NCBI GenBank assembly: GCA_002163135.1
Contig: MAAN01000009.1
Location: forward strand, 62,001-126,000
Direction of reading: 5' to 3'
DNA length: 64,000 nt
Source of the DNA: Alphaproteobacteria bacterium 46_93_T64
GTDB taxonomy: Bacteria; Pseudomonadota; Alphaproteobacteria; Sneathiellales; Sneathiellaceae
Shown here: positions 20,301-25,241 of the stretch, piece after piece
Numbering within the stretch: position 1 is the stretch's first letter
Layout: each line of letters starts with the position of its first letter
Program-made: the position numbers and the translations under genes
The notes under the pieces: model-generated
What the model was told of the DNA's origin: nothing
The model's database searches: none
The model's input: the letters and a program-made list of their open reading frames with translations, nothing else

Positions 20301-20801
20301 ATGACACAAAGTGGGGCGCGAGTAGGCATAATTATGGGTAGCCAATCAGACTGGCCAATCATGAAACATGCCGCAGATACTTTGGCCGAACTCGGGGTGA
20401 ATTTCGAAGCAAAAATTGTTTCAGCTCACAGAACACCAGATCGTTTGTTTGAGTATGCTAAAAGTGCAAAAGATCGTGGTCTAAAAGTTATTATTGCAGG
20501 TGCCGGTGGTGCAGCTCACTTACCGGGGATGGCCGCATCAATGACCCCAATCCCGGTCTTAGGTGTCCCAATTGAAAGTAAAGCATTAAAGGGAATGGAC
20601 AGCCTGTTGTCGATTGTTCAGATGCCGGGCGGTGTCCCCGTAGGCACACTTGCAATCGGAAAAGCCGGGGCCATAAATGCAGCACTATTTGCAGCACAAA
20701 TTCTGGGTCTGACTGATCAAGATACAGCGACAGCCATTGATGACTGGCGGGAAAAACAAACTTCCGCCGTCGCTGAAGAACCAACTGACATTCCTCAATA
20801 G
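20301..20801 (+). CDS. purE: 5-(carboxyamino)imidazole ribonucleotide mutase
   Basis: [62 protein letters not shown]. Confidence 0.97.
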
Positions 20802-20811
20802 GATAGACCCA

Positions 20812-21900
20812 ATGACCATGATCGCACCGGGACAAACAATTGGTATCCTTGGGGACGGACAACTTGGCAGAATGATGGCACTTGCCGCTGCCGAGCTTGG
20901 GTACAAAACACACGTATTTGGGCAAGATCCGAATAGCCCGGCGGCACAAGTAAGTACTGCCGTTACCATCGCTCAATATACCGATGAAGACGCATTGCGT
21001 AAATTTGCCTCTTCAGTCGATGTAGTCACATTGGAATTCGAAAATATTCCAACGGCAACTCTTGATTTTCTGGAGGCAATCGTCCCTGTGCGCCCGGGAA
21101 AAAAGGTTCTGGAAATCACACAGGACCGGCATCTTGAAAAAAGCTTCCTCAATAGCCTTGGCGTCCCCACAGCCCCTTTTGCAAATGTAGAGTCTCTTGA
21201 AGATCTTCGTGCTGGGATTGCCAGGATCGGAACACCCGCGATCTTAAAGACACGACGTTTTGGATATGACGGTAAAGGTCAGGTTAAAATCAACGCTGCT
21301 ACTGAGATTGATGAAGCGTGGGAAGAAATTGGTGAGCAGCCTGCAATTCTTGAAGGTTTCGTACCCTTTGAACTTGAGATTTCAGTTATCGTCGCTCGCG
21401 GTATCAATGGGGACATACAATCTTATATTCCAGTAGAAAACAAACACAAGAACCACATTCTAGATATCACTTTGGCACCGGCTGACATCTTAATTTCCAT
21501 CTCGGAACATGCCGTAAAATTGGCACACAAAATTGCAGACCAAATCGATCTTGTTGGATTGATGGCCGTTGAAATGTTTGTAACTCGTGATGACGATGTA
21601 CTGGTGAACGAACTGGCACCACGTCCGCATAATTCTGGCCATTGGACGATTGAGGGCTGCACAGCCAGTCAGTTTAAGCAAAGCATCCGTGCCGCGGCGG
21701 GCCTTCCTTTGGCGTCCGCTGAGCGGCATTCCAATGCAGTAATGCGTAACCTGATTGGTGATGATATAAATCACTGGAATGACATTCTCTGTCATCCAGA
21801 GATGAGCCTTCACCTATACGGGAAAGCCGAGGCACGCGAAGGCCGCAAAATGGGCCATGTCACGCGCCTGTTCCCACTGGGTACTGCGCCTAAAGTCTGA
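20812..21900 (+). CDS. purK: 5-(carboxyamino)imidazole ribonucleotide synthase
   Basis: GQTIGILGDGQLGRMMALAAAELGY, TLEFENIP, LKTRRFGYDGKGQ, NELAPRPHNSGHWTIEGC; start set to ATG 20812. Confidence 0.97.
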   Translation: MTMIAPGQTIGILGDGQLGRMMALAAAELGYKTHVFGQDPNSPAAQVSTAVTIAQYTDEDALRKFASSVDVVTLEFENIPTATLDFLEAIVPVRPGKKVLEITQDRHLEKSFLNSLGVPTAPFANVESLEDLRAGIARIGTPAILKTRRFGYDGKGQVKINAATEIDEAWEEIGEQPAILEGFVPFELEISVIVARGINGDIQSYIPVENKHKNHILDITLAPADILISISEHAVKLAHKIADQIDLVGLMAVEMFVTRDDDVLVNELAPRPHNSGHWTIEGCTASQFKQSIRAAAGLPLASAERHSNAVMRNLIGDDINHWNDILCHPEMSLHLYGKAEAREGRKMGHVTRLFPLGTAPKV

Positions 21901-21902
21901 GT

Positions 21903-22634
21903 CTAGGCCCAACCACCAGCAAAATATAGCACCTGCCCTGTGATATAGTCTGACTTATCTGAAGACAGAAATGCGAGATATTCCCCCGCTTCTTCGGGCT
22001 TTCCAAGGCGTCCCAGAGGTATGGGCTTCGTAATTTTCTTTAAAGTCTCTTCGTTTTCCAAAAGCTCTTTTGGAAAATAAGTTGGGCTTTCAATAAAATT
22101 AGGCGCAAGTGAGTTCACTTGAATTCCTGATTTTCCAAGCTCTTTGGCAAGTGTCACCGCCAGCGCGTTCGCGCCACCGCGCGCTGCCACATACATCGAA
22201 TAATTAGGTAAACCATGTTTTGGCACCGCAGACGAGATGAATATTATCTTGCCCGAGCCACGTTTTTTCATATGGGCAGCCACATATTTTGCATAAGTGA
22301 AGCCTCTTACCAACAGCGCATCCAAAGTGTTTCTGAAATCTTCAATATCCGCCTCGTCAATTGAGGCTCTGATAGCTGGATAGGCATCATTATTGACCAG
22401 AACATCCAGATGTCCTGCGATAGCCAATACGGCTTTTAAAACCTCTTCGGGGTCCTGCTCTGCCAGGGGTGTTACACCCGGCACTAATTCAGAAAAGGCA
22501 AGACGGGCATTTTCATCCACGAATGACGCATCTTGCGCAAATACCGTGGCCCCTTCTCTGATTAAAACAGAGGCGCCGGGCTTTCCGACAAAATGGGTCG
22601 CATCAGTGATCAGGATATTTTTGTTTTTCAGCAT
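21903..22634 (-). CDS. SDR-superfamily protein with halohydrin dehalogenase signature motifs
   Basis: N-terminus ILITDATHFVG (T-x4-F-x-G) instead of TGxxxGxG; catalytic SAVPKHGLPNYSMYVAAR (S-x12-Y-x3-R) instead of Yx3K. Confidence 0.75.
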   Translation of the reverse strand: MLKNKNILITDATHFVGKPGASVLIREGATVFAQDASFVDENARLAFSELVPGVTPLAEQDPEEVLKAVLAIAGHLDVLVNNDAYPAIRASIDEADIEDFRNTLDALLVRGFTYAKYVAAHMKKRGSGKIIFISSAVPKHGLPNYSMYVAARGGANALAVTLAKELGKSGIQVNSLAPNFIESPTYFPKELLENEETLKKITKPIPLGRLGKPEEAGEYLAFLSSDKSDYITGQVLYFAGGWA

Positions 22635-22671: not shown

Positions 22672-23328
22672 CTAGCGTGCTTTCAAATTCCGAAAAAACC
22701 GTGCTGGAGATATAAAATCGGGCGCAGCTGGTTTCTTCGAGAAGAATTTCTTTGTTTTGTATTTGACCTTTTCGAACTGCATGACATTTTCAATACGGCG
22801 ATCCAAGAACGCCCACGTGCTATCGAAATCTTCTGAACTATCATCTAGCCAGAATAATAGTGTCGAGCAATACACCAAAGAAAGTGTAAAGCGCTTCGTA
22901 TAGTAACTGAAATCTGTCGACGTATCACCCGTTGCGTACCACATACGGCTCACGGTGCTCTCCGTCAGTTTAAGGCCAAGAGCAGCGTTCTGCGGCAATG
23001 CCAGCAAAGTAAGCGCGTTCCGAATAGCTTCCCTATAAGGTGCATAGATTTCCAGTCGCAACCTTACAGCTAAGGTAATGCGTTCCCGGATTTTCATTGA
23101 GAGAACATTATGTTCGCTCAACTGCTCTTCCATATGATCATCAGCGTGCTCAATAAAGAACGCGATTAGATCAACGGGCCCGTTCGGAAAATGGCGTTCA
23201 AACAAGAAGGGATCGACTTTTAGATCCTCGGCCGCATGTTTAATCGCTTTTGTAGACCAACCATCGAACAAAACATGTGGCAGTACGGCTTCAAGTAAGC
23301 TTGCCTTTTCTTCGGTTTGAACCGTCAT
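22672..23328 (-). CDS. COQ9 family protein
   Basis: LLEAVLPHVLFDGWSTKAIKHAAEDL; WYATGDTSTDFSYYTKRFTLSLVYCSTLLFWLDDSSEDFDSTWAFLDRRIENVMQFEK. Confidence 0.88.
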   Translation of the reverse strand: MTVQTEEKASLLEAVLPHVLFDGWSTKAIKHAAEDLKVDPFLFERHFPNGPVDLIAFFIEHADDHMEEQLSEHNVLSMKIRERITLAVRLRLEIYAPYREAIRNALTLLALPQNAALGLKLTESTVSRMWYATGDTSTDFSYYTKRFTLSLVYCSTLLFWLDDSSEDFDSTWAFLDRRIENVMQFEKVKYKTKKFFSKKPAAPDFISPARFFRNLKAR

Positions 23329-23343
23329 TTCATTCCTCCAAGA

Positions 23344-23901
23344 TTAGTCAGATACCTTATAGGTTTCCATAAATGCCTGCATTTCTGTTTCATACACCAA
23401 ATTACGCAGATCTGTCATCCGTTCAGGATACAAAATACCGTCTAAATGATCCACTTCGTGCTGAACGACACGCGCATGAAAACCATGAGCCTCTCTTTGA
23501 ACCAAATGCCCTTCCAGATCTTGCCCGCTATATTGTATCTTTGTAAATCGCGGGACAAGTCCACGCAGCCCCGGCACAGACAAACAACCCTCCCACCCCA
23601 GTGCGGTTTCCTCTTCTAGAATTTCGATTTTCGGATTGATCAGAACAGTCTCGGAAATTCCCTCCCCCTCACCTCCGTCCTCCTGAGACAAACGATCGCC
23701 AGGAACAGAAAAAATCACCACTCTTAATAAAATCCCTATTTGCGGGGCTGCCAATCCAACGCCTCCGGCCTCTGCCATACTGAGTCGCATAACCTCAACT
23801 AAACTCCGAATCTCTTCGGTTGTAGGATCGTCAACTGGGGCCGCTAATTCACGGAGTAACGGATTTCCCATCTTCAATATCGGTTTCGCAGTCATTTCCA
23901 C
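23344..23901 (-). CDS. def: Peptide deformylase
   Basis: GVGLAAPQIG, GWEGCLSVPGLRG, QHEVDHLDGILYPERM. Confidence 0.96.
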   Translation of the reverse strand: MEMTAKPILKMGNPLLRELAAPVDDPTTEEIRSLVEVMRLSMAEAGGVGLAAPQIGILLRVVIFSVPGDRLSQEDGGEGEGISETVLINPKIEILEEETALGWEGCLSVPGLRGLVPRFTKIQYSGQDLEGHLVQREAHGFHARVVQHEVDHLDGILYPERMTDLRNLVYETEMQAFMETYKVSD

Positions 23902-24336: not shown

Positions 24337-24380
24337 AGTGTTTGTTCAAATAACATTGCTTTGCCGCATTGGGGGATCAC

Positions 24381-25241
24381 ATGCAACCGGAAGAAATCGA
24401 AAGTATTCAAATAGATTTCGCTACGAGCGATGGTTGGATTCTAAAAGCAAATCGTTACGCACCGCCGTCAGGTGACATCAAAGCGATTGTTTTGTTGATG
24501 CCTGCAATGGGATCTCATTCTAGGCCAGCTCGATTTATGGCAAGTGCTCTTGCAAAAATGGGGAATCTTGTCGTTGCACTGGACCCGCGCGGTCACGGTC
24601 AGAGTAAGCCGCACCCAAAACGCGGCATTGATTACGGTTTTGATCATATTTTAAAATACGATCTCCCTGCTGTGGTCGCCTCCATAAAAGAAAATAACCC
24701 TGATCTGCCGATCTTTATGATCGGGCATAGTCTGGGGGGACACTTGTCAGCAATTTTTGCTGCGGAAAATCCCGATGAAATAAGCGGTGTGATAACTCTT
24801 ACGTCTGCCCATCTTCATTCAAAAATAATTGGCCGACCAGCGCTTATTCTTTTCACAGCTTTCGCGGCGATTTCGAAGCTTTTTGGATATCTTCCTGGTC
24901 AACACTTCGGATGGGGAACGCCAATTGCACGGAAGCAAGTCATGGATTGGGCAAAATGGGGTATCACAGGTGTTTTACGAGGAACAGATGGGCGCAATCT
25001 TGAGCCTGTATTAGCGACGTCCGGCACCCCGACATTATGCATCGGCTTTACAGATGATCTTCGCATGGCTCCTACGCGCAGCACCAAAGCATTTTCAGAA
25101 TTAATGCCAGCAGAAATCTCCACGCATTGGGAGATCGCACCTGCAGACGTCAATGCAAAAAAATTAGGACATTTTGATCATTTGCGAACCGGCACTGTTC
25201 TCTGGGAACGCCTCAATCATTGGATAGATGAACGAGCTTAA
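24381..25241 (+). CDS. Alpha/beta hydrolase (serine aminopeptidase/lysophospholipase-like)
   Basis: LMPAMGSHSRPARFMASALAKMG, ALDPRGHGQS, FMIGHSLGGHLSAIFAAENP. Confidence 0.88.
   Translation: MQPEEIESIQIDFATSDGWILKANRYAPPSGDIKAIVLLMPAMGSHSRPARFMASALAKMGNLVVALDPRGHGQSKPHPKRGIDYGFDHILKYDLPAVVASIKENNPDLPIFMIGHSLGGHLSAIFAAENPDEISGVITLTSAHLHSKIIGRPALILFTAFAAISKLFGYLPGQHFGWGTPIARKQVMDWAKWGITGVLRGTDGRNLEPVLATSGTPTLCIGFTDDLRMAPTRSTKAFSELMPAEISTHWEIAPADVNAKKLGHFDHLRTGTVLWERLNHWIDERA

Follow-up and report, generated by a model that had tools for sequence, protein, structure and literature searches.

The window, a 64,000-nucleotide stretch of contig MAAN01000009.1, belongs to a Sneathiella-group genome of 4.0 Mb and carries an intact gene whose predicted product resembles the halohydrin dehalogenases (HHDHs), enzymes of a known kind that interconvert haloalcohols and epoxides (Table 1). 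The COQ9 family and def genes named as its neighbours in the preliminary description are indeed found upstream on the same strand, while the gene converging on its other end, which we take to be purK from sequence similarity rather than from a family search, probably has its true start at an internal ATG of the open reading frame. Scans for promoters and terminators were uninformative, the consensus matches numbering about double the mean for shuffled sequence.

Table 1. Features of the HHDH locus, with positions counted from the first nucleotide of the window.
Feature	Coordinates	Strand	Remarks
purK-like gene	20737..21900	+	convergent with the HHDH gene, 2 nt between
HHDH homologue CDS	21903..22634	-	intact, ATG start, TAG stop, 243 aa
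PNFIESPTYFP, residues 178-188	22071..22103	-	loop equivalent to the HheC halide site
HHDH motif 2, S135-AVPKHGLPNYSM-Y148-VAA-R152	22179..22232	-	S-x12-Y-x3-R triad; SDR lysine replaced by arginine
NNDAYP, residues 81-86	22377..22394	-	NNAG at the same place in ordinary SDRs
HHDH motif 1, T10-DATH-F15-V-G17	22584..22607	-	predicted nucleophile/halide pocket replacing the glycine-rich NAD(P) loop of SDRs
COQ9 family gene	22672..23328	-	37 nt upstream of the HHDH gene
Peptide deformylase gene (def)	23344..23901	-	15 nt from COQ9
Alpha/beta hydrolase gene	24369-25241		nucleophile elbow GHSLGG, with Ser and not Asp

The Pfam families matched by the 243-residue protein are adh_short and adh_short_C2 only, and none of the best 25 NCBIfam models reaches its own cut-off. 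The default annotation as an SDR, which the preliminary description had rightly supposed, is therefore to be expected, since these collections recognise only the SDR superfamily. The published definition of HHDHs rests on two motifs with mechanistic meaning, T-x4-F/Y-x-G and S-x12-Y-x3-R (PMC4989007, PMC11976700). Both can be read in the translated frame, where, as had been proposed, the first stands in place of the NAD(P)-binding glycine loop and the second in place of the Yx3K of ordinary SDRs. The protein thus lacks the classical SDR loop T-G/A-x3-G/A-x-G (it reads TDATHFVG) and the classical S-x10-14-Y-x3-K, having Arg152 at the position of the lysine. In the alignment with SDRs, F15 falls opposite a glycine of the glycine-rich loop and R152 opposite the lysine; the compared SDRs carry Gly, Ala/Val, Lys and Gly/Val at the positions equivalent to F15, D83, R152 and N179, respectively, and the ordinary SDRs read in this genome have Y-x3-K and mostly G-x3-G-x-G. 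The loss of the glycine-rich loop suggests that the enzyme would work without an NAD(P) cofactor; HHDHs are cofactor-free homotetramers.

The two motifs seldom arise by chance: among 625 non-homologous proteins of the same loci, motif 1 was found in seven (counted in the first 50 residues only), motif 2 in 15, and both together in none. They are present in nearly all homologues with at least 44% identity and in none of the distant SDR matches, and the relatives that keep them also share the change from NNAG to NND and the halide-pocket residues N179 and Y186. Across 36 homologues, G17, N82, S135, R152, N179 and Y186 are invariant, and Y148 is found in at least 90%.

In a sequence search of the PDB the best ten matches were all dehalogenases, ahead of every ordinary SDR: E-values were 8.8e-67 for entry 6a41, about 1e-49 for HheC and about 1e-40 to 1e-41 for HheA, compared with 1.3e-29 for the first ordinary SDR (FabG). 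An AlphaFold2 model of the window protein, built from the 36 homologues (mean pLDDT 94.6, pTM 0.92), was used for a fold search of the PDB, and the top 14 matches were again dehalogenases, with TM-scores of 0.97 for 6a41 (rmsd 1.4), 0.92-0.94 for HheC and 0.91-0.92 for HheA; the fold is not decisive on its own, because SDRs share it at a TM-score of about 0.89, the value obtained for FabG. A maximum-likelihood tree of 65 proteins, which included 18 ordinary SDRs (seven of them from the same genome) and covered the HHDH types A to D, placed the window protein with HheA, HheB, HheC, the HheD-like structures and 6a41 in a clade with 100/100 support, apart from all 18 SDRs. Within this clade it belongs to the A/C branch, the B/D references being separated at 100/100. 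The phylogeny called for in the preliminary description thus speaks against a position inside the ordinary SDRs, and the identification as a candidate HHDH made there is supported by the sequence, fold and tree comparisons alike.

Considering sequence, tree, fold, and the conserved triad and anion pocket together, we judge it very probable that the gene encodes a cofactor-independent HHDH of the HheA/HheC branch. The protein adds a member to an already known family, and its catalysis is predicted. Some points call for caution: the nearest structure, 6a41, is only 47% identical, no halogenated-substrate pathway surrounds the gene, and the catalytic Tyr or Arg is missing from some homologues in the A/C branch, so that not every member of the branch need share the reaction.

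The likeness to 6a41 extends over the full length of the protein and includes both motifs, NNDAYP and the N-x6-Y-F-P loop. This entry belongs to a different alphaproteobacterial family (f66), and in the tree the Sneathiella group is not its sister; a protein encoded by one of the alphaproteobacterial genomes (G379) shares 98.4% identity with it. The depositors label this structure only a "dehalogenation enzyme", and no paper on it was found in a literature search. HheC of Agrobacterium radiobacter AD1 (1pwx and variants), which is paired with an epoxide hydrolase in a haloalcohol route (PMC11976700), is 41% identical to the window protein. Its residues T7, F12, G14, D80, S132, Y145, R149, P175 and N176 correspond to T10, F15, G17, D83, S135, Y148, R152, P178 and N179, and its F186/Y187 lie opposite Y186, a pocket match predicted from aligned residues. 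HheC differs in a halide loop three residues longer, in W139 where the window protein has Leu142, and in a C-terminal extension, the window protein ending at GGWA. HheA (4z9f) and HheA2 of Arthrobacter sp. AD2 (1zmo) share both motifs, a loop of the N-P-T-Y-F-P type and 37% identity, but form a long separate branch in the tree. HheB (4zd6) and the HheD-like structures (7b73, 8xxb) likewise carry both motifs and fall in the same overall clade, but occupy a 100/100 branch of their own, with 28-34% identity to the window protein. A text search of the literature for Sneathiella together with halohydrin dehalogenase gave no match, published HHDH lists lying outside its reach.

Orthologues were found in 23 of the 26 genomes of the GTDB family, namely in 22 of the 25 members of the genus (64-89% identity for the orthologues, 64-100% over all 22 genomes) and in one genome of the sister genus (51%). 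The gene is single-copy and nearly always convergent with purK; about half of the genus and also the sister-genus genome keep the order def, COQ9, HHDH gene on one strand. In three genomes no match reached 1e-30, and only SDR-level matches were seen. In one of them (G013, L132:1504-4070) purK converges, 2 nt away, on the SulP transporter gene that in other members of the genus flanks the HHDH gene on the side away from purK; since SulP there follows purK directly, the HHDH gene is cleanly absent and dispensable in this genome. Assembly gaps may explain the absence from the other two, because G020 has no purK match and G025 stops close to purK. In the tree the genus is a single clade (100/97), and the data do not reject a clade uniting it with the sister genus (p-AU 0.345). 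Selection on the gene in the genus is purifying, dN/dS being 0.07-0.12 in the five pairs with estimable dS (the other pairs are saturated). The gene thus appears to be chromosomal, dispensable and inherited vertically, and its COQ9 neighbourhood may reflect inherited gene order only.

No genes of a halogenated-substrate pathway or of pollutant degradation were seen around the HHDH gene. An epoxide hydrolase adjoining it, as would mark a catabolic operon, is missing for the EHN and LEH (limonene-type) families: EHN had no match in any of the 26 genomes of the GTDB family, and LEH was not found in the gene's own genome. These absences agree with the earlier remark that no haloalkane pathway is obvious here; one type-II haloacid dehalogenase scored above its cut-off, on another contig of the same genome. 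A different setting was observed on plasmid NZ_CP089591.1 of Microbacterium sp. J1-1 from activated sludge (L134:2835-6477), where genes for a haloalcohol dehalogenase, an epoxide hydrolase and glpK lie between IS1634 transposases; this homologue, 36% identical to the window protein, is associated with a mobile element and an epoxide hydrolase, unlike the chromosomal gene of Sneathiella. The window HHDH is best read as a stand-alone chromosomal enzyme, and its conserved setting in the genus is suggestive of a non-catabolic one.

Beyond the genus, 45 of 385 sampled Alphaproteobacteria genomes (about one in nine) contain a match at 1e-30, the true count being slightly lower because at least two of the matches (L120 and L122) carry SDR motifs; L020 and L120 are ordinary SDRs. 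The rarity ascribed to HHDHs in the preliminary description therefore does not hold as an unqualified claim, even allowing for these few SDRs. The neighbouring genes in other alphaproteobacterial families vary (SulP, aminotransferase, Mrp antiporter, GMP synthase, ABC transporter, amidohydrolase) and include no common partner. A partnership with an SDR, COQ9 or an epoxide hydrolase was rejected as a general rule, adjacency to COQ9 being confined to about half of Sneathiella and one sister genome.

Several of these homologues depart from the canonical residues. Three from different alphaproteobacterial families (L117:7995-8735(-), L118:7968-8726(+) and L119:7953-8732(-)) have Ala or Pro at the catalytic Tyr, while motif 1, the Ser and Arg of the triad and the Asn of the halide loop are retained; they form one grouping (96/82) beside a Tyr-containing relative, and the first adjoins genes for a TetR regulator and an RPE65-type carotenoid oxygenase. 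Tandem HHDH pairs occur in small genomes (1.6-2.3 Mb) of family f97 (L109:7986-9479 and L112:7995-9475), one copy of each pair lacking the aromatic residue of motif 1 and having Gln at the catalytic Arg. Two homologues of family f40 (L090:8001-8732(+) and L091:4576-5310(+)) have an intact triad and would be missed by the published motif, because Trp replaces its Phe/Tyr (TSATHWAG, TFATHWAG). A further homologue lies within a long co-directional gene run (L106:3056-16728) that also encodes an acyl-CoA dehydrogenase-like protein and its paralogue, a thiolase, an asparagine-synthase-like amidotransferase and a carboxyltransferase-like protein, and that may be a biosynthetic operon.

By homology to the established mechanism of HheC, Tyr148, its pKa lowered by Arg152, would take the hydroxyl proton of a beta-haloalcohol whose hydroxyl group is held by Ser135, and the oxygen would then displace the halide from the adjacent carbon. 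The leaving halide would enter a pocket that Phe15 and the 178-188 loop (Asn179, Phe180, Ile181, Tyr186) make up in the place of the NAD(P) site, and in the reverse reaction small anions would open epoxides. Much less confidently, we suggest that the enzyme of Sneathiella may act on natural halohydrins or epoxides by itself, in housekeeping or detoxification, and not as part of a pollutant-degradation operon.

That the protein is an ordinary NAD(P)-dependent SDR bearing the motifs by chance, as the SDR-only verdict of the Pfam and NCBIfam models might suggest, is scarcely credible given the lost glycine-rich loop, the exchange of Lys for Arg and the position in the HHDH clade. A catalytically inactive pseudo-enzyme could be imagined from the branch members without Tyr or Arg, but is very unlikely, as the triad is intact in the window protein and in every Sneathiella orthologue and selection is purifying. 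The Microbacterium plasmid shows that mobile cassettes of an HHDH and an epoxide hydrolase exist; a recently acquired pollutant-degradation gene of this kind is nevertheless most improbable for Sneathiella, and is largely refuted by the synteny common to the genus and its sister genus and by the conservation described above, including the single clade of the genus, its possible union with the sister genus and the lack of EHN and LEH enzymes.

More weight is due to an enzyme of HHDH fold whose native reaction is another one, either the opening or closing of a particular cellular epoxide by an anion or some other acid-base reaction in the pocket, with dehalogenation as a promiscuous activity. 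A stable gene among housekeeping neighbours, the missing epoxide hydrolases and the changing neighbourhoods in other Alphaproteobacteria all fit such an enzyme, and a 2016 review could not exclude other physiological functions for HHDHs (PMC4989007). Against it, the triad and halide-pocket positions are all as in tested HHDHs and no alternative substrate is indicated; we hold it possible but doubtful. It is compatible with the preferred assignment to the HHDHs, from which it differs in physiological use and not in family. A broader and still more tentative proposal is that the HHDH of Sneathiella and other Alphaproteobacteria is ancestral, has passed down vertically and serves natively in something other than haloalcohol catabolism, and that this pool supplied the catabolic HHDHs known from the A/C branch.

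HHDHs are useful in epoxide chemistry, and their natural function is unsettled. The main importance of the present gene is that an HHDH appears as a stable part of the chromosome in a whole genus, and that no genes for pollutant degradation adjoin it. The wider alphaproteobacterial set is a source of HHDH enzymes hidden under the SDR label, and a single-copy, syntenic HHDH in a culturable genus, naturally absent from at least one member, offers a clean knockout system in which the natural function of these enzymes could be addressed.
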